Positions 9,191 to 61,489 of a DNA stretch of 64,000 nucleotides are shown one piece after another. Source of the DNA: Macrotis lagotis (lineage: Eukaryota > Chordata > Mammalia > Peramelemorphia > Peramelidae); NCBI RefSeq assembly GCF_037893015.1, contig NC_133663.1:620001-684000 (forward strand), written 5' to 3'. The notes below the pieces were generated by a model. The model searched no databases. It was not told the DNA's origin and worked only from the letters and a program-made list of their open reading frames with translations. The position numbers and the translations under genes were made by a program. Each line of letters opens with the position of its first letter. Position 1 is the stretch's first letter.

Positions 9191-9478
9191 AATGATGATG
9201 TTTGTTCTTGGTTCTAGAAAAAGACCATGACATCAGGGAGGTGAATGCCATGATAAGCAAGGGAATTATATTCACTTGCTCTCCCAGAACCATCTAGGAC
9301 CAGTGGCCAGATATGGATCAGGAAAACTGGGGAATGGCCCCAGATGTTAGGGTAAAGTGACTTGCCCAAGGCCCCACAGCTAGTAATTGTCAAGTGTCTG
9401 AGGTCAGCTTTGAACTCAGGTCCTCCTGACCCAAGGATTGCCATTCTATCCTCAATATCATCTAGCTGCCTGGGTGTC
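9191..9478 (-). mobile_element. long CORE-SINE (marsupial-specific 3' block)
   Basis: Read on +, it starts with the distal block 'agaaaaagaccatgacatca' and 'gccatgataagcaaggg'. It passes 'ccagtggccagatatgga' and the CORE 'aagtgacttgcccaagg', and ends in the reversed tRNA head. It has the same architecture as the copy at 51,923. Confidence 0.8.
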
Positions 9479-16226: not shown

Positions 16227-16384
16227 GGGGGGTGGCTAGGCAGTGCAGTGGATAGAGCACCAGCCCTGGAGTCAGGAGGACCTGAGTTCAAATCTGACCT
16301 CGGACACTTCATAATTACCTAGCTGTGGGGCCTTAGGCGAGCCACTTAACCTCATTGCTTTGCAAAAGACTAAAAAAAATAAAT
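16227..16384 (+). mobile_element. WSINE1-like CORE-SINE
   Basis: Well-preserved copy: head 'gcagtggatagagcaccagc', 'ctggagtcaggaggacctga', B box 'gagttcaaatc', then 'cacttcataattacctagct' and a short end 'attgctttgcaaaagacta' with an A-tail. This short tail separates it from the MAR1 copies. It is one of the younger repeats here. Confidence 0.88.
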
Positions 16385-18376: not shown

Positions 18377-19297
18377 TATGTGACCTTATCTTTTTCCTAC
18401 TTTACTTTCTAATTACATGAAAAGGTTGTTTTCAACATTCACCCTTTTACAAACTTTGGAGTTCCATATATTTCTTTTTTTTTTTTTTTTTTTTTGCAAG
18501 GCAATGGGGTTAAGTGACTTTCCCAAGGTTACACAACTAAATATTAAGTGTCTGAGGGCAGATTTGAACTCAGGTCCTCCTGACTCGAGGGTTGGAGCTC
18601 TATCCACTGCACCACATAGTTTCCCCAAGTTCCATATCTTTCTACCATCCTCTTTTCCTTTCCCCCTCCTCATGAAAGCAAATAATTTTATATAGAGGTG
18701 TACATATATAATGGTGTTTAGCATATTTCCACATTTGTCATGTTGTGAAGGAAGAATTAGAATGAAGGAGAAATGAGAAAGAAAAAACATTAAAGAACTT
18801 TTTAAAATTGAACATAGTATACTTTGCTCTGCATTCAGAAGCCATAATTTTTTTCCTCTGGATGTGGATGATATTTTCCTTAACAGTTCTCTCAGGATTG
18901 TCCAGGCGTTGTGTCCATCATAGTTGTGTCCATCATGTTTGATCTCAAAATGGTGCTGTTAATGTGTACAACATTCTGGTTCTGCTTATTTCACTCAGCA
19001 ACAGTTCATGAAAATCTTTCCAGGCTTTTCTGAAATCCTGCCATTTTAGAACACCACAGCTTGTTCAGCCATTCCCCAATTGATAAGAATCCCCTTGATT
19101 TCCAATTCTTTGCCACTACAAAAAGAGCTGTTGTAAATCTTTTTGTTCATGTGAGTCTTTTTCTCTTTTGATCTCTTTGGAATATAGACCAAGTGTATTG
19201 TTGGTTCAAACAGTTTGTACAGTTTTATTGTCCTTTGGACATTGTTTTCCAGTTCACAACTCCACCAACAATGCATTAGTGTATGTGACCTTATCTT
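18377..19297 (-). mobile_element. 5'-truncated L1 with perfect 16-bp TSD
   Basis: TATGTGACCTTATCTT at 18,377-18,392 and 19,282-19,297 is a perfect 16-bp direct repeat flanking an antisense L1 3' end. The body (18,393-19,281) reads the 3' UTR 'tgttttcaacattcaccctt', then antisense ORF2: 'gttctgcttatttcactcag', 'cagccattccccaattgata', 'gatttccaattctttgccac'. A SINE later inserted at 18,476-18,627. Confidence 0.92.
18460..18643 (-). mobile_element. WSINE1-like SINE with 16-bp TSD, inside an L1
   Basis: AGTTCCATATATTTCT (18,460-18,475) and AGTTCCATATCTTTCT (18,628-18,643) flank it with one mismatch. The body starts with a T-run and 'ttttgcaaggcaatgggg' and carries the reversed CORE and tRNA head ('gttggagctctatccactgc'). 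Its insertion into the L1 gives relative order: L3, then L1, then SINE. Confidence 0.92.
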
Positions 19298-21409: not shown

Positions 21410-22525
21410 GCTTTTTTTGTAATAGTCTTTTATTTATAATTACGTATAAAAACAATATCAATTTTGTACATGACTGTCAATCTAATATAGGTTATACATT
21501 AACAATCATATAACACATAGTTCCATATTGTGGAAGAAAATTAAAAAAATAAAGGAAAAAATGAAAAATACTATACTTTGGTCTGCATTCAGACTCCATC
21601 AATTCTTCCTCTGGAGACAGATAACACTATTCATAATGAATACTTTTGAGATTGTTTTGGATCATTGTATTTCATCATATAATATTGCTGATACAATGTT
21701 CTCCTGGTTCTGCTCATTTCACCCTGCATCAGTTCATGCAAGTCTTTCCAGGTTTTTCTATTCATCATTTCTTAATACACAATAATATTCCATTTAAAAT
21801 CATATAGCACAACTTGTTCAGTCATTTCTCAATTTTCAATTCTTTGCTTCCACAAAAGAGCTGCTGTAAATATTTTTGTACAAATAAGTCTTCTCCCCTT
21901 TTCTTCTCTTGGGGATATAGACCTAATAGTGGTATTGCTGGAACAAAGGGTCAGAACAGTTTTATAGCCCTTGGAATAAATTTCCATATTGTTCTCCAAA
22001 ATGGTTGGATCAGTTTACAACTTTACCAGCAATGCAATAGTATCCCAATTTTCTCACATTCTCTCTCATACTTATCATTTTCCTTTTCCCATCAGCTAAT
22101 CTGTTAGGCATGAGGTGGTACCTAAGAGTTATTTGAATTTTTCTAATCAATAATGATTTAAAATATTTTAATATAGATAACTTTGATTTCTTCCTTTGAA
22201 AACTATCTATTCATATTCTTTGACCATAAATTGGGGAATGACTTGTAGTCTTATAAATTTAATTCACATCTCCAAATATTTGAGAAATAAGACCTTTATC
22301 AGAAATATGTGCATAACATTTTAAATTTATTATAATAAAAATTACCCATATTACATTTTCTTATGCTCTCTATTTATTATTATGATAGGCAAACTATTCC
22401 ATGCTCTCCTTTACATCTAAGTTATGCACTCATTTTGACCTTATCTAGGTATTTGGTGTGAGATATTGGTCTATTCCTAGTTTCTGCCATAATGCTTCCT
22501 AGTTTTTGAAAACAGCTTTAGGTAC
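21410..22525 (-). mobile_element. L1 LINE, 5'-truncated
   Basis: Antisense L1 3' UTR, then ORF2: 'ttctgctcatttcaccctgc', 'aatattccatttaaaatcat', 'tgttcagtcatttctcaatt', 'ggggatatagacctaatagt', 'gttaggcatgaggtggtacc', and 'aattggggaatgacttgtag' in degenerate form. Many stops, so it is inactive. It faces a sense L1 300 bases downstream. Confidence 0.85.
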
Positions 22526-22829: not shown

Positions 22830-23716
22830 GACATGTAAAATAATGCTTTTTTACCCAAATAAAACTAATACTATAATTACAAGGAAAGCAGCAATCTGGG
22901 GCGGGGGGGGTTGCAACAAGTATCACTGCTAAAAGGCCTTATTCTCAAATATATAGAGAACTAAGTCAAATTTAGAAAACCACAAGTCATTCCTCAATTG
23001 GTAAATGATCAAAGTATATGAGCAGGCAGTTTTCAGACAAATAAATCAAAGCTATCTAGTCATATAAAAATTCTCTAAATCACCACTGATCAGAGAAATG
23101 CAAATGAAAACAACCCTGAAGTACCATCTCACACCCCTCAAAGTGATTTATATGACAAAAAAGGAAAATGCTCAATATTGGAAGGGATATGGGAAACTGA
23201 AATACTAATATATTGTTGGTGGAGTTGTGAATTGATCCAGTCATTTTGGAGAGCAATGTGGAACTATGCCCAAAGCAATAAAACTATGCAAACACTTTGA
23301 TCCAGCAATACCACTACCAAGTCTATAACCCAAAGACATTCAAAAAAGGGGTGATCAGTACCTATTTGTGCAAAAATATCTATAGCAGCTCTTTTTGTGG
23401 TGACTAAGAATTGGAAATTAAAAGGACCTCATCATTTAGGGAATGTGCTTAAGATTGAAATGGAATACTACTGTGCTATAAGAAATGAGAAGCAGGATGA
23501 TTTCAGGAAAATCTGGAAAGATTTATGTGAACTGATGCTGAGTGAAGTGAACAGAACCAGGAGAACATTGTTCATTGTAACAGCAAGGTTATGAATGACT
23601 TAACCATTCTCAGCAATACAATGATCCAAGAAAATCCCAAGAGATTAATGATGAAGCATAATATCTGCCTCTTGAGAAAGAATAGATATTGATTGAATAC
23701 AGACTGAAGCAAGCTT

Positions 23717-26879: not shown

Positions 26880-27390
26880 GTTCCTGCCTTCACATCATCT
26901 TCCTCATTCTCAGCCCATTCCATCCCATCTTTTGGCTCACACAGGAACGACTTTAGGCTTGGCATTCATCACTTCTGCCTCCATTGTTACAGGAGCCTCC
27001 CAATGGCTCAAAGCTCCAGGCCAGCCTCCAGACTGCTATCAACAGGATTTTCCTTAAACTCAAATTAGATCATGTGACTCCCAGTGGATATTAAGATCAA
27101 ATATAAACTCTTATCCTCTTAGTCCCTTACCTCTTAGATTGTCTTTGACTTATACCATATAGATGATGGCTAGATAGATGATAGATAGATCTTATACACA
27201 AAATACAAACTCCCCTTGCCTCTGAGATCACCTCCCATTTACACTCTATATAGATCTTATATACCAAATGTGGGGTTCCAGAGGTGGGGTAGATCATGGG
27301 CCCTTCTTTATATCTCCACTCCAGTGCATTGTGCAATGACTAGCACATGGAGATGCTTATTAAATTCATGTTGTAAACTGACTAGCTGAA
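26880..27390 (+). mobile_element. L2 LINE
   Basis: Sense L2: 'ctcaaattagatcatgtgac', 'atcaaatataaactcttatc', 'cagaggtggggtagatcatg' in degenerate form, and the end 'cattgtgcaatgactagcac' then 'atggagatgcttattaaatt'. A small GATA-type repeat (27,162-27,190) lies within. Confidence 0.6.
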
Positions 27391-27899
27391 TCTGTCTTCT
27401 AAAACCCTTCACCATGGCATTGTAGTTGACAATTCCAGCCCAATTCTCCTCTTGATCCTGAAGTCCAGGCAAACTGTCCTTTGGTTCTCATCAGCAGAAA
27501 TCCCCCAGTGTCACAATGACACAAAGTAGGACCAAGTGCACAGCTCCTGTGAGGAAGCTTCCTGGAAACCTCATCCCAGGCTGGGAACTAGGGCAGAGTC
27601 TGAGTCTATTCAAAACAGGATGTTTACTGACTCCAAGGAGCCTCAGGCCTCCTCCTGCTTCCTGCCACCCTTTCCTGGTGGGCCTCAGCCAGGCCAAATA
27701 CATCCCAAAGCAGCTGAAGCTGAAGGTGCCAGCAGCATCCCCAGGGGCTTCCTGCAGAAAGTATCACTCCAGGAGAAGATAGTTTCAACCTCTGGTCTGG
27801 GGGGAAGTGGAGGGCTGAATGTCCTGGGAAGGTTCATTTAACAGCTAAGTTTCTTCACTTAGCAGAGATCTGTAGAGATAGAGAGGCTGGACTGTGCTG
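27391..27899. other. unassigned non-coding DNA
   Basis: Two overlapping + frames (27,516-27,841) lack any known motif. Confidence 0.45.
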
Positions 27900-28120
27900 C
27901 CCTTCCAGCTCTGAAGGTCTCTGAACCTTTCCTGGTTCTGATACGTCATCCCAGAAGATGTTAGACAGGGAGGCTGGAAGGGACCCAAGAAATCACCCAG
28001 GACATGCTTCATTTTACAGCAAGGGCACATGTGACTCAGGAGAAGGCTGTGTCCATGGGCATCAGCTAGTAACAGCTAGAACCAAGCTCTAAAGATGCTA
28101 GATCCAAAGCTTTCCACTCC
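27900..28120 (-). mobile_element. old MIR-like SINE
   Basis: 'aggctggaagggacccaaga', 'gcttcattttacagcaaggg' and a reversed end 'agctctaaagatgctagatc' follow the MIR antisense order in diverged form. Confidence 0.4.
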
Positions 28121-28524
28121 TCCCTGTGGCTCAAGCTTTCTCAAATTGCCTTTGGGAAAGCAGACTCCTGGGCTCCCACTAATGGGTTTGGTTCCAGGGA
28201 CCTGAAGTATGCTGCTCACCTTCTAAATATGATGGGAAACATCCTTCCTATTGTGGTGGGCTCTTTGGGAATTCTGGACTGAGAAAGGTTAGATATGTTG
28301 TCTTGGTGTGGAGGGATCATGGAAAGCTGGACAGATTACCAGGCTGAAGTGGTTGGAGAAGATCTGACGCACCCTGACCTCTCTACCTATAAGGAGGAGA
28401 CCCCCTAAAGAGCCCCAGTATATTTGTACTACAGATTGAGCATTTGGAGACTGGGGGCTGGGAGTGACCACCAAAGGTTCCTGTGCCAACTCCCCCACCT
28501 AGTAGCAAAGTGAAAGTGAAGGGG
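28121..28524. other. unassigned non-coding DNA
   Basis: Nothing recognised. Confidence 0.45.
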
Positions 28525-28680
28525 GCTGCCTGTTATGATCTCAGATCTAGGAGGAATCTTTGGGACCACTTAGTTCCACTTGGCTCTCTTCTTTTGCCCA
28601 GGAGGAAACAAACTGGGGAATCACAGTCAGCAAACCAGAGGTGAGACTTAAGCCCAAAATTTGTGCCCCACCCCACCTAG
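28525..28680 (-). mobile_element. old MIR-like SINE
   Basis: 'tctttgggaccacttagttc', 'caggaggaaacaaactgggg' and 'aatcacagtcagcaaaccag' then 'aggtgagacttaagccc' fit a degenerate antisense MIR. Confidence 0.4.
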
Positions 28681-28837
28681 CAGCCTTCTCCCTGGGCCAG
28701 AAAGGTAGGGTGACAAAGAAGCCATATGCTTCCCCATCTAAGGAAGGCACTGGGGACATCTGTTCCTGTTGTAGGAAGGCCTAACTAACTTATCTGAAGA
28801 AGATCTGGGAAAGTCATTAGGCTGCAAGCCTAACCCA

Positions 28838-28880
28838 GCTGAATGAATGGATGAATGGATGTATGGATGGATAGATGAAA
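28838..28880. repeat. (GGAT)n short repeat
   Basis: Imperfect GAAT/GGAT units. Confidence 0.8.
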
Positions 28881-29424
28881 ATAAAGTAGATTGACAATCT
28901 CAATTGCATTGTGGATGCCTCTGCTCTGAGGATGCTAAGCCAGAAGCCCCGACCTGGAGAGGTAACTTCATTCGAGATTTTTGCCAGTGACCTAAGTGCC
29001 ACAGTGGAACAGGGAACTTTGTTGGTGAGTCTGGTCCTGGCTCTGTCCAGTGGAAATTCTGATAAAAGGCCAGGTCTGCATCTCTGCCCAGAAGCATTAG
29101 CTTCAACCTGCATGTGAAGGCAAGGATCTCATTCCCCCAGAATGAGAGCAGTTCATTCTGTCTGGATGCGTGAATTCTACTGCCCACCTTGTCCGGGTCT
29201 TTGCCAGTGTTGTGAATCAGTACTGACCTGCCAGTGACCACTGAGCCCTAGACACTAGATCTCAGCGGGGGGGGGGGGGGGAGTAAGCCACCAGCTTTGA
29301 TTGATTGTGTGGGAATTAACTGAAGCTCTTCTGCTTTGGGATGCCTGGCCCTGGGTAGGAGAGAAGAAAATTGGATCCTTGAAATGGATCTGTTGAGCCA
29401 AAACCCTAACTCCATTCTTCTTTA
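28881..29424. other. unassigned DNA with a G run
   Basis: No recognised element. A 15-base G run sits at 29,267-29,281. Confidence 0.45.
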
Positions 29425-29640
29425 ATTAAAAATATTTGTGCTTTTTGATGTATTTCATTTTTATGTCACCTAATGTCTGCAGTGTCTTTCCTTCTCCCCC
29501 TCCTAGAAACCCATCTTCAGACCAAGATTTTTGAGGGTGAGGGAAAGAGGGAAAAGAGGAAAAATAAGCTGCCAAACAGATCAATATATCAGCAAAACCT
29601 GAAAACAGATGCTACATTCCACACTTAGAGAACATTTTTA
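29425..29640 (-). mobile_element. possible L1-type 3' end
   Basis: A T-rich start, 'cttccttctccccctcctag', 'gaaaagaggaaaaataagct' and 'gatgctacattccacactta' resemble a marsupial L1-related 3' end read backwards. The match is from memory and weak. Confidence 0.35.
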
Positions 29641-29641
29641 T

Positions 29642-29771
29642 CTTATGAGTCAAACCCCTGGGAAACTAGAGAGCTGATACCACAATTAGGGGTGGTAAAA
29701 GTGGAAGTGGTAGAAAGGCCAGGTGAGGGATGGACAGAGAGTTGGAAGGAGGGATGGAGAGAGCAGAGGAA
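29642..29771. repeat. source copy of a 130-bp inverted duplication
   Basis: It matches the reverse complement of 31,128-31,257 at 129 of 130 positions by eye. It is contiguous with the purine-rich tract that follows, so it is the likely source. Confidence 0.95.
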
Positions 29772-30425
29772 TGGGAAATGGAAGAAGGGCTGGAAAGTGA
29801 GATGGAGGAATAGAAGGGGGATGGAAAGATAGAATAAGGATGGAAGGAAGGATGGAAAGAAAGATGAAAGGATGGTAGGAAGGATGGAAGGAGGGGTGAA
29901 AGGAGGGATGAGTAGAAGAAAGAATGGAGGTTTGAAAGGATAGAAAGATGGAAGGAAGAGTGGAGGGAGGGGAGAGGAAAAGATAGGAGAGGTAAAATGA
30001 GGAATGTAGGAAGGCGAGATGGAGGGAGGGCAAATAGAAGTGGAATGAGGAATGGGGAAAGGAGAGATAGAGGGATAGAAGGAAGGATAGGGGAACAGAT
30101 GAAAGGAAGAATTGATGGGTGGAAGGAGGAAGGATAAATGGAGAGGATAGAGAGCTGAAAAGAAAAAAGAGGTAGAATCAGGAATGGAGGGAAGGATGGA
30201 TGGAAATAAAAATGGAGAAATTAAAGAATGAAGGAATAGGGGAGTAAAGGGAAAGATAAATGGAGGGATATTAGAAAAGATGGAGAAATAGAAAGTATTT
30301 GGAGGGAAGAATGGATGGAAGGAGGAAAGGAAAGGGAGGGAAGTATGAAAAAAACATTAAGGGATGGAAAGAGGAGTGGAGGGAAGGATGGATAAATGAA
30401 AAGCAGAATGAAGGGAGGGATGCAC
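29772..30425. repeat. GGAT/GGAA-rich degenerate satellite-like tract
   Basis: About 650 bases are dominated by GGATGGAA-, GGAAAG- and GGAGGGA-like units with few pyrimidines on +. The same bias starts inside the source segment at about 29,690. The S/F/L/P-rich minus-strand frames follow from this composition. Confidence 0.85.
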
Positions 30426-30729
30426 TTCACTTTGCATCTGGTACTCTGCCTGATTTCAACTCCATGAACAAGATGCCCACCTGCCAGGAATCTATGGTGT
30501 GCCCCACTTCACTACTTTCTTGCCTTCCCTTCTGTGCTGTCTACCCTATTCAATGGTTCTCATTCCTGCTCTGAGACTTTTTCTCTGGATGAGCCTCACC
30601 ATCTAAGAAATGGGTATAAAAAGATTTGTGCTTCCTGTATCAGTGGGCTAAGGTGAAGAGGAAATGAGTTTGTGTTTGTCCAAGACACCCCTGCTGACCT
30701 ACAGAAGTGGATGTTGGTGGCCAATATGA
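30426..30729. other. unassigned non-coding DNA
   Basis: Nothing recognised. Confidence 0.4.
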
Positions 30730-31681
30730 CCAGAAAAGATAATGATTGATCTTGGAAAGGATGTGGGAAATCTGGGACACCGATGCATTGTTGGTGGAGC
30801 TGTGAACTCATCCAACCTTTCTGGAGAGAGATTTGGAACTATGCCCAAAGGGCAATGAAAATGTGCATAGCCTTTGACCCAGCAATACCACTATTGGGTC
30901 TGTACCCTGAAGAGATCATGAAAAAGGGTAAAAACACCACCTGTATAAAAATATTCGTAGCAGCCCTGTTTGTGGTGGCAAAGAATTGGAAATCAAGTAA
31001 ATGCCCTTCAGCTGCAGAATGGCTTAGCAAACTGTGGTCTATGTATGTCATGGAACACTATTGTTCTATTAGAAACCAGGAGGGACAGGAATTCAGGGAA
31101 ACTTGGAGGGATTTGCATGAACTGAGCTTCCTCTGCTCTCTCCATCCCTCCTTCCAACTCTCTGTCCATCCCTCACCTGGCCTTTCTACCACTTCCACTT
31201 TTACCACTCCTAATTGTGGTATCAGCTCTCTAGTTTCCCAGGGGTTTGACTCATAAGCTGAGCGAGATGAGCAGAGCCAGAAGAATGTTTTACACCCTAA
31301 CAGCAACATGGGGGTGAGGATCAACCTTGATTGACTCACTCATTCCATTAGTGCAACAATCAGGGACAATTTGGGGCTGTCTGCAATGGAGAATGCTATC
31401 TGTAGCCAGATGAAGAACTGTGGAGTTTGAACAAAGGCCAAAGACTTTTACCTTTCATTTTTTTTTAATCTGTCATCTCATTATGTAATTTTGCTATCTC
31501 TCACATTTTATTTTTTCTCTTAAGGATATGATTTCTCTCTCATCACATTCAACTTAGATCAATGTATACCATGGAGATAATACAAAGACTAACAGACTGC
31601 CTTCTGTGGGGGGAGGGGGAAGGGAAGCAAGATTGGGGGAAAATTGTAGAATTCAAAAATAATAAATTTATTTAAAAAAAG
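30730..31681 (+). mobile_element. 5'-truncated L1 carrying a 130-bp foreign insert
   Basis: Sense L1 ORF2 end: the frame at 30,783-31,127 reads MHCWWSCELIQPFW, then FDPAIPLLGLYPEE, VVAKNWKSSKCPSA and MEHYCSIRNQ, the typical ORF2 C-terminus. The L1 is broken at 31,127/31,258 by the inverted insert and then resumes with 'gagatgagcagagccagaag'. The 3' UTR ends in 'aataataaatttatttaaaa'. It is less diverged than the other L1 copies here. Confidence 0.92.
31128..31257. repeat. inverted templated insert inside the L1
   Basis: These 130 bases are the reverse complement of 29,642-29,771 with one difference. CTGAGC is present on both sides (31,122-31,127 and 31,258-31,263), so the insertion may have duplicated 6 bases. 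There is no A-tail. Confidence 0.95.
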
Positions 31682-33196
31682 AAGTATGTGTCGGTATTGC
31701 TACTGCCTCAGGGCTCTTGTGAAAATCAAGGGAGGTGGCCAATGAGAGCACCCTCTGAGGTGGGACATGGCCAATGAGAGCAGCCTCTGAGATGGGACAC
31801 AGATGTCAGGTCCCTGCTGCCCTCACCCTGGCATGGTCAATGGAGGTCAGTAATCATGAGGACTGACCACATGGTCAGAAGAGCCCAGATACATCCATGT
31901 AACTAGACTCATGTGGCTGGATTCCTCCAGCTGTTGGGGAGGGGTCAGGCAAGAAGATCCTTGGAGGTCACCCTGCCCAGCCCCTCACAGGAGGTGGGGG
32001 TAAGGGGTGAAGAGCTGGGAGGGAGGAGACAGTAGACCAGACCCTGGGTTTCATCTCCTCCTGTTTTGGAAGGGGCCTCTCCCTTCTGTGTCCAGCCCTG
32101 CCCTGAGGGCAGAGAAGGACATCTCAGGAAGTTCCCCCTGAATCCTAGAAGTTAGAAGGAACCCACCTGAGGAAGCAATGGATCCCGAGAAGTGGAGCCA
32201 GAGGGAGGACCTAGAGCCCCTCCACAGAGATTTACCCAGCACAGTTGGCCCCCAAATCTCGGCTCTTCAGTACTCACTCTGTGTGTTCATCACAACTGAG
32301 TACCCACCCTTGCCAGGTCCCTGACCTCCAGCCATACACTTTATTAAAAGCCACAAAGGATGGAAGATCCCATTCCTATTAAGTTGCAGCTGTAGGGATG
32401 TGGTTCGGGTCAGCTTGCCCTCAGAGACTGAGGCCCTTCCTCGTATGGCATCCTTCGACCTGGTCAGGAGAGGGATGCACTGCCAGAGGGAGAGATGGGT
32501 GCTGAGCTGTCCTGGGCATGTCTGCAGAGAGACTCAGTTGCCCAGGCTTGGGAGGATAGAGAGCCAGATTCTGGGGGGAAGTTAGGCTCCTAATCTGACA
32601 AAAAGAGACTCTGAGGTTGGGCACTGGGTGGGCACTGGTGGGCAGTGCCTGGCCCACAGAGTTTCTCTAACATATTAATCCCCCTTCTTCTGCTGTCTAA
32701 CCCCCACAACACCTCACCACCTTTACCTACCTTGTGCCCCATTACCTTTCTCTTATTGGATCACCTAGTATTTGTTAAGGCCGGCCAGGGGCGTGTCCTG
32801 ATAAGTATCAGAATGTGTTTGTGAATAAGGACCCTCTTGTTGGCATTGCTAGGTCATTTTTGTGACTTATAAACTGGAAGGGGAGGCTGCATGGGATTGT
32901 CTCCATCCTACAGATGAGGAAACTGAGGGATGAAGAGAAGTCCCTTTCCCATCTTTGCATCCATAAACATGAAAACTGCACTGACTGAGCCAGCATCTCA
33001 GGCAAGGCCTGCTTCCTCCCAGCCCCACTCCTCAGCTCCGCTGGTCAGCACCCCCTCTTTTTCTTTCCTCAGGGCTCTGTCTCTGAGGTGGCCACCTGAG
33101 GGGGAGGCTTCCTCCTCTGGAGCTCCACAGCTGGGTCTCTACAAGAGCCTTCCAGGACTTAAGGGTCTGAAGGGCATTTGCCCTCCAGTGACACCA
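31682..33196. other. unassigned GC-richer DNA
   Basis: No gene or clear repeat beyond a tandem duplication (31,737-31,800) and a short antisense MIR piece, 'tacagatgaggaaactgagg', at about 32,909-32,928. Confidence 0.4.
31737..31800. repeat. 32-bp unit tandem duplication
   Basis: Two adjacent units, both starting GGCCAATGAGAGCA, differ at three positions. Confidence 0.9.
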
Positions 33197-33232
33197 GCTG
33201 CTGCTGCTCCTCCTCCTCCTCCTCCTCCCCCT
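33197..33232. repeat. (CTG)n/(CTC)n short repeat
   Basis: CTG units lead into CTCCTC units. Confidence 0.85.
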
Positions 33233-33239
33233 CCCTCCT

Positions 33240-33917
33240 GCTCGCTGTAGTTTCTTCAAGGTCACTGACAAGGTTGTTTCTTCCAGGACTAAGGATGTGG
33301 CCCCGGGACCAGGGAGCTGGAGGTCACCCAGAGCAGCCAGGCTCCCTTGGCCTTCTTCCTTCTACTCTGTCCTCTCCCATCCAAACTCTTCTTTCTGCCT
33401 CTGTTCATCGTCCCTGGCCCATAAGCCAAGAGCAACAAGGCCCTCCTTGATCTTCCTCTGGCCCCTGGGAGAGTGTAGGGGAGTCCTGGGCCTTCCACTT
33501 TTCTCAAGGAGTATGGGGCTTCACCTGTTCCTACTGAACAGTGCCAAGTTTGGAGAGCATGAGCCCAGAGGTGCAGGCTTCTTTGTCCAGGATCTATAGC
33601 AAGAACCCAAGGATCCCAGCCCATCTCAGGAGCTGACTCTAACTCTGGCTTTCAGAGAGGCTGATTGGAGTCTGGAGGGGGTGGAGGAAGAGAAGGACCA
33701 GCTCTGAGGACACCAAAGACCAAGGCCTAGGTTCCTCATCCTCCAAGGAGGCCTGGGATAAGAGATCAAGGCATCTCAGACCAACAGTGGCCCCTCAGGC
33801 CCACCTATTGCTCAGAGGTCTATGGTAGGACCAGAGGGCTGAAGTGATTCTCCTGAAGTTATCCAGGGGGCCATCTCCAGAGCCAGGTTGTCTGCATTCT
33901 ATCATGAGTGACACAGT
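33240..33917. other. unassigned GC-richer DNA
   Basis: Overlapping frames on both strands have no recognisable motif. Confidence 0.4.
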
Positions 33918-34087
33918 GATGTATTTTTTTTTTTTTTTTAGTTTTTGCAAGGCAAATGGGGTTCAGTGGCTTGCCCAAGGCCACACAGCTAGGTGATTAT
34001 TATTAAGTGTCTGAGGCCGGATTTGAGCTCAGGTCCGCTTGACTTCGGGGTCAGTGCTCTATCCACTGTGCCACCACCTAGCTGCCT
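33918..34087 (-). mobile_element. WSINE1-like CORE-SINE
   Basis: A long T-run (33,924-33,939) is followed by 'gtttttgcaaggcaaatggg', CORE 'gtggcttgcccaaggccaca', 'aagtgtctgaggccggattt' and the reversed head 'gtgctctatccactgtgcca'. This is a well-preserved young copy. Confidence 0.9.
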
Positions 34088-51922: not shown

Positions 51923-52240
51923 TAATGTTTGTCCTTCAATTTTGAAGAAGGCCATGACATCAGGAGGGTGATGCCATGACAAGCATGTGAATTGGATTGG
52001 AGTGAGGGGAGGCTGTGCTAAGTCCCCAACCTCCCTTTCTCCTCAGAGTCATCTGTATCCAGTGACCTGATATGAATCAGGATGACTGGAGATGGCTCTG
52101 GATGAGAGGCAATACGGGTTAAGTGACTGGCCCAGGGTCACACAGCTAATTAGTAGCAGTTGTCTGAAGCCAGATTCAAACTCTGGTCCTCCTGACTCCA
52201 AGGCCAGTGTTCTATCCACTGCACCATGTAGCAGCACCTT
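51923..52240 (-). mobile_element. long CORE-SINE, near full length
   Basis: 'tttgtccttcaattttgaag' then 'aaggccatgacatcagg', 'gatgccatgacaagcatgtg', 'gtgacctgatatgaatcagg', CORE 'aagtgactggcccagggtca', and reversed head 'gttctatccactgcaccatg'. It has the same layout as 9191-9478 but is better preserved. Confidence 0.88.
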
Positions 52241-56676: not shown

Positions 56677-56790
56677 GCCATTTTCACCTGGTGTTCAGGT
56701 TTGAAGGTTAGGGAGCCTGAATAACTCCTATAAATTCTGGCATAGGTTGTTATAAAGAGAGACATTAAACAGATTAGGGCCACCACATAT
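56677..56790. repeat. direct repeat unit, copy 1
   Basis: Begins GCCATTTTCACCTGGTGT and includes 'ctcctataaattctggcata' and 'agagagacattaaacagatt'. About 15 differences from copy 2 over roughly 112 aligned bases by eye, plus a 3-base gap. Confidence 0.88.
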
Positions 56791-57543: not shown

Positions 57544-57660
57544 GCCATTTTCACCTGGTGTGCGGGTCTGAAGGTCTGAGAGCCTATAAATTAACTCCTA
57601 TAAATCCTGGCATAGGTTCTTAAAAAGAGAGACATTAATCAGATCAGGGGCACAACACAC
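57544..57660. repeat. direct repeat unit, copy 2
   Basis: Partner of 56,677-56,790, offset 867 bases, same strand. I cannot assign the unit to a known repeat family. Confidence 0.88.
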
Positions 57661-60855: not shown

Positions 60856-60960
60856 CATGAAGAAAAGTCTGAGACATGGAAGCAGATGCAGTTCCTGTCC
60901 TTGGGGAGCTTCCAGTCTGCTTGGGGAAATGGTTCATGAATCATCTGAAGATCAATCTGA
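60856..60960 (-). mobile_element. L2 LINE 3' fragment
   Basis: 'gcagttcctgtccttgggga' then 'gcttccagtctgcttggggaa' fit the antisense L2 end. Confidence 0.55.
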
Positions 60961-61302
60961 GGCAGGGAGGAGGAGGAGCAGGAGGAGGAGGGAGAGGAGG
61001 AGGAGGAGGGGAAGATGGAAAAGGAGAGGAAGGAGGAGAAGGGCATGGAAGAAGGAGGAGGAAGGAGGGGAGGAAGAGGAGGGGAGGGAGGAGGAAAAGG
61101 GAGAGGATGAAGAGGAAAGGGAGGGGAAGGAGACAGGAAGGGGAAGGAAGTGGGAAGGGAGGAGGAGGATGAAGAGAAGGAGGAGGGGAAGAAGGAAGAA
61201 GAGAAAGAGGAAGGAGGAGGGAGGAAGGAGGAGGGAAAGTTGGAGAAGGAAGAGAGGAGAAGGGTGGGAGGATGGAGAAAGAGGAGAGGAAGGAAGCTTG
61301 AC
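60961..61302. repeat. long (GGA)n-rich purine tract
   Basis: About 340 bases are almost purely purine on +, built from GGA, GGAA and GAGGAG. The G/R/E/K-rich + frames and the S/P/L-rich minus frames are composition artefacts. Triplex or replication-stalling potential is high. Confidence 0.95.
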
Positions 61303-61489
61303 ATGGAGATGCCTGTAGACTTCCCTCATAGGGATAGACTCTGCTCTCAGACCTCTCCTGTCATGCTCTTCCTTCTTTTTAGTGGCATTCCCCAGAAGTG
61401 GGGTCCATGTTGACTCCTATTGTGGTCCAAAGGAGGCTGCCCAGACTGCTTCTTTCCCTCAGGTTCAGATCACTCAGGCTGTGCAGGTC

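Follow-up and report, generated by a model that had tools for sequence, protein, structure and literature searches.

An L1 fragment in the genome of Macrotis lagotis is interrupted by a short inverted copy of DNA that lies nearby, which raises the question of where this copy came from and how it came to be placed within the L1. The stretch analysed here (the window) comprises 64,000 nucleotides of contig NC_133663.1, from position 620,001 to 684,000, and contains no N bases; all positions below are counted from its first letter. The interrupting copy, 130 bp long, occupies 31,128-31,257, and its + strand corresponds to the - strand of a segment at 29,642-29,771, with 1,356 nt (about 1.4 kb) separating the two arms. 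Upon direct comparison, 31,128-31,257 and the reverse complement of 29,642-29,771 are identical at 129 of 130 positions with no gaps, so that the single difference counted by eye in an earlier, sequence-only reading of this DNA is upheld. The sole mismatch is represented by a T at 31,208 facing position 29,691, which reads C on the strand of the insert. The edges of the match are abrupt, and not one further base matches beyond either end.

Such a match is not expected by chance. A repeat search of 27,000-34,000 (seed 12, minimum 30 nt) returned this pair as the only inverted one. In the whole window, 167 exact inverted matches of at least 20 nt were found; the 15 longest consist of the two halves of the pair, 80 nt (its longest uninterrupted stretch) and 49 nt, together with (CA)n/(TG)n runs, the pair being the sole match of another kind among these 15. 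Two controls were used for comparison. When the window was simulated ten times under a Markov-1 model, the exact inverted matches peaked at 16-24 nt, while the mirror sequence, reversed and uncomplemented, gave 782 matches of at least 20 nt, the longest of 58 nt, which are likely simple repeats. The 49-nt half taken by itself exceeds the Markov-1 control only; the 80-nt half exceeds both controls, and chance is thus excluded. Ten pairs were obtained when the window was compared with itself by BLAST under dust filtering (E up to 1e-20), and the second highest identity among them was 87%, over 87 nt. With an E-value limit of 1e-3, the 130 bp were not found a third time in the window, leaving two copies in total there, and the only other match to it was a purine-type one of 33 nt at 82%, located within a purine-rich tract. 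A repeat family with a third copy was accordingly rejected, within the 64-kb window only.

Which of the two copies is the original can be read from the L1. The 5' part, at 30,750-31,127 on the + strand, is open for 126 codons and encodes the C-terminal part of ORF2, as indicated by its translation and by phmmer, which aligned residues 2-123 of the 126 to human LINE-1 ORF2p (E 2.1e-39); a Pfam search of the same ORF2 end gave no families. Past the insert, translation and alignment to sibling copies show that the ORF2 frame resumes on the + strand at 31,258-31,317 as LSEMSRARRMFYTLTATWG, followed by a stop codon, and the rest of the L1 3' end, with an A-rich tail last, follows at 31,318-31,681 on the + strand. 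Direct repeats around the whole L1 amount to two 6-nt ones only; the limit of the element used here is the putative one drawn from its letters in the sequence-only reading. Both halves of the L1 keep one orientation, which gives no sign of a later recombinational inversion between the arms. Just past the L1, at 31,730-31,793, a 32-nt unit occurs twice in tandem, with 88% identity between the copies.

The window also holds five sibling L1 pieces, near 7.5, 18.9, 21.7, 23.4 and 42.5 kb, which are older, paralogous copies with 67-73% identity to the recipient over their longest alignments. Two old L1 pieces, 21,581-22,297 and 22,932-23,704, are mutually inverted with 71% identity over 782 columns, and parts of them are among these empty-site siblings. 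The insert is absent and the site continuous in all five siblings; the local alignment itself spans the insertion site in four of them, the 42.5-kb copy not crossing it. It follows that the L1 is the recipient and 29,642-29,771 the donor, as had been proposed from the continuity of the L1 on both sides of the insert.

With the empty site supplied by the siblings, the junction is resolved almost to single bases. In all five, TG stands before C (GAACTGA-TGC in four, GAACTGT-TGC in one), whereas the target reads GAACTGA-GC and then enters the insert. Relative to the siblings, two bases (TG) are therefore lost, while GC, at 31,126-31,127 on the + strand in the place of that TG, and the 130 bp are gained. 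The lost TG belongs to an ATG or TTG codon in the siblings; indeed, the peptides at the site in the four siblings that were translated are CELMLSE, QELMLSK, HELLLSE and HELMQGE, all of which keep the codon order EL-(M/L)-(L/Q), and the target reads HEL before being broken by the insert. The pre-insertion site was most likely AACTGA-TG-CTGAGC, and the simplest history would lead from AACTGA-TG-CTGAGC to AACTGA-GC-[130]-CTGAGC, corresponding to a putative insert-free reading of AACTGATGCTGAGC; as the siblings are old paralogs, the prior state of the target itself is one that we infer from them rather than observe. The GC filler could have been copied from the downstream CTGA-GC after a slip on the 4-base CTGA, or it could be untemplated, a two-base match having a chance of 1/16. 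At the joins with the donor, the left side shows no microhomology and the right side no more than one base (G), with the 4-base CTGA slip possible at the left.

These junctions bear directly on whether the insert could be a mobile element. The sequence CTGAGC immediately flanks the insert on both sides, as had been pointed out, and it would be a true 6-bp target-site duplication if the insert-free site had been AACTGAGCGAG, the donor then being just another copy of the element. However, TG before C in 5/5 siblings argues that the repeat, although present as letters, is no target-site duplication, as this history would further need a 6-bp deletion. The repeat is probably better explained by CTGA already occurring twice in the L1 (CTGA-TG-CTGA) and by the two added bases GC. 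In addition, no direct repeat longer than 4 nt lies within 20 nt of the donor on either side, the donor runs into a purine tract, and the window contains no third copy. A mobile element is thus extremely improbable, and a transposon with a 6-bp duplication was rejected on account of the TG-C of the siblings and of a donor lacking flanking repeats. L1-mediated retroposition of the insert was also rejected, since no poly(A) tail is present on either strand and no target-site duplication is seen against the siblings, in agreement with the earlier view that this is not a retroposition.

The combination of a microdeletion, microhomology of 0-1 base, two filler bases and no A-tail fits the scar of a template switch, and the insert is most likely the product of one such event during repair or replication. 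The earlier proposal that a template about 1.4 kb off was copied in inverted orientation into the L1 gains support, and the junctions are compatible with either template switching or the repair of a break. In this process, a DNA end or a stalled nascent strand within the pre-existing L1 fragment would have been extended on the wrong template nearby, namely the opposite strand of the segment about 1.4 kb upstream, so that 130 nt would have been copied in inverted orientation before the L1 was rejoined. On the + strand, the four-point path would leave the L1 at 31,127, enter the donor at 29,771, follow it leftwards as far as 29,642 and rejoin the L1 at 31,258; the mirror-image path along the opposite strand is equally possible. 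As to the left junction, the end ...ACTGA may have slipped to the next CTGA, which lies two bases on in the sibling sequence (CTGA-TG-CTGA), with GC copied after the slip and the jump to the donor coming next. A single event, driven by a replication or break-repair polymerase and of germline origin, would account for this path.

A tentative alternative, possible but not favoured, is that a ready-made local fragment was ligated by end joining into a double-strand break of the L1 (class 2), with no polymerase jump in place; the captured fragment may have been a displaced flap, a short piece of DNA or the reverse transcript of a local RNA. Near-blunt junctions, the 2-base loss and the 2 filler bases are in line with this capture, and microhomology of just 0-1 base leans towards it for at least one end. 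In the available text of PMC5110952, experimental patches range from 73 to 414 bp, with a median of 191, and RNA is reported among the templates, while a fragment-capture step by non-homologous end joining (NHEJ) is proposed in yeast in the corresponding part of PMC11724301. On the other hand, the patches of PMC5110952 are there said to derive from distant regions, and a donor 1.4 kb off would be very unlikely for a patch drawn at random from the genome, so that end joining would need some local coupling. Template switching is the most likely reading and the end joining of a local fragment a close rival; the two share the copy and the scar and overlap in practice, and the probabilities given to them are not mutually exclusive.

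The return to the L1 also weighs on two further explanations. The reverse transcriptase of this very L1 might have jumped templates during its insertion, copying a local RNA in the middle of the cDNA. The L1 chimeras known to us join at the L1 end, without return to the L1. Here the reverse transcriptase would need to abandon the L1 RNA and regain it within two bases, which makes such a jump highly improbable, even if chimeras of L1 with other RNAs are catalogued in the accessible text of PMC13174262. An artefact of assembly or sequencing, in the form of a fold-back chimera or a misplaced contig piece, is very unlikely as well: the insertion is exact in an otherwise continuous L1, two bases are replaced, one base is unlike the donor, and a fold-back would not be expected to return to the same L1 base.

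The donor is intact and continuous with a purine-rich tract of 737 bp at 29,688-30,424 on the + strand (86% purine, by the purine fraction in 200-nt sliding windows). The donor had been described as bordering this tract; the contact is real, but it goes beyond bordering, as the tract takes in 84 of the 130 donor positions. The tract had also been put forward as a candidate stalling site; for one event with a locally chosen donor, overlap with a 737-bp tract is unsurprising. No unusual DNA folding was found at four stretches beside the switch points (z -1.48, -0.22, 1.83 and 0.72), and stalling driven by structure is thus unsupported by the folding z-scores. Kilobase-range inverted switches seeded by purine-pyrimidine tracts might be recurrent in this genome and missed by 100-nt scans, with synthesis here arrested by the tract, which would have fixed the limit of the copy at 29,771; this broader idea is improbable. 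Three purine-rich tracts (1,239-1,552, 29,688-30,424 and 60,911-61,343) are present in the 64 kb, with 82-86% purine by 200-nt windows, and a run of 15 G stands at 29,267-29,281, some 360 bp to the 5' side of the donor.

Regarding its age, the insertion would postdate the L1 if made by template switching; ahead of the insert, the ORF2 end runs for 126 codons with no stop, and beyond it the frame agrees with the protein of the siblings. The near-identity of 129/130, from which a recent event had been proposed, stands, but one difference in 130 corresponds to a divergence with a 95% confidence interval of 0.02-4.2%, and gene conversion between the arms could keep them alike. The near-identity thus suggests a recent insertion only weakly.

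No function of its own can be discerned for the insert. Rfam gave no matches in 28,000-33,500 at the gathering score, and ARAGORN no genes in the whole window. Exact L1 and 130-bp patterns were absent from a collection of viral contigs, and the exact L1 pattern from a collection of genome contigs; these say little, being viral and prokaryote DNA, respectively. The same holds for protein pattern scans of the viral and prokaryote collections, which yielded 1 viral and 21 genome-contig stretches, with none confirmed by tblastn. Elsewhere in the window, five short segments (9,351-9,436, 16,243-16,383, 18,475-18,619, 33,924-34,081 and 52,107-52,226) are 80-87% alike on both strands and perhaps form one dispersed SINE-like family, and 56,677-56,787 and 57,544-57,657 form a direct repeat, 0.87 kb apart, with 85% identity over 114 columns.

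Scars of this type, left by repair or replication, have precedents in other genomes. In apes, four-point template switches place a reverse-complement copy of a neighbouring sequence between points 1 and 4 via a transient jump and return (Walker et al. 2021, PMC7954356, available text). The insert is similar in that, between its two switch points, it reads as the reverse complement of DNA close by; however, the search described there covers the cluster region +/-100 nt, whereas here the arms are 1,356 nt apart and the copy is 130 nt long. The ancestral and derived states required by the four-point model are here compared through paralogous L1s with 67-73% identity, not through an orthologous site. 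A different class of events, the microinversions of apes, was rejected: all cases are flanked by inverted repeats according to the accessible part of PMC8755829, and the present edges share 0 bases and show no inverted repeats, so that this class does not fit.

According to the available text of PMC8421209, the signature of MMBIR is an inverted orientation relative to a template close by, and the insert shares with the MMB-TI described there the inverted copying of a nearby template. In that dataset, microhomology of 2-12 bases is reported for 80% of 103 junction sets examined, with a tool range of 100 bp; in contrast, the arms here lie 1,356 nt apart with 0-1 base of microhomology. Insertions at yeast breaks also resemble the present case in that copied DNA is captured at a break, and the complex cases show 0-4 bases of microhomology at break ends. 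Local foldback copies in yeast, unlike this one, are mostly 5-34 bp, and the longer inverted cases are fragment pairs from one other locus (PMC11724301, available text).

Class 2 templated insertions (TSIP) are marked at their junctions by microdeletion, microhomology and added bases, as stated in the available text of PMC5110952. The insert agrees with them in length, as 130 bp falls within the experimental 73-414 bp, in its microdeletion and added bases, in having an intact donor elsewhere, and in the lack of an A-tail and of a target-site duplication relative to the paralogous siblings. It differs in that class 2 donors are described as distant and the present one is local and inverted; with the donor 1,356 nt off, the event is thus filed as working like class 2 rather than as a strict TSIP.

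The consulted literature yielded no title about this locus in a search on marsupial inverted template-switch insertions, and no unpublished kind of event is claimed; being a single event, the insert proves nothing general. Collectively, the four known kinds (PMC7954356, PMC8421209, PMC5110952 and PMC11724301), as far as their available texts go, jointly cover the features seen here, distance excepted. The combination of 130 bp and 1.4 kb, beyond the 100-nt scans and nearer than class 2 donors, is slightly unusual by the same sources, a difference of degree in what is a clean but ordinary example.
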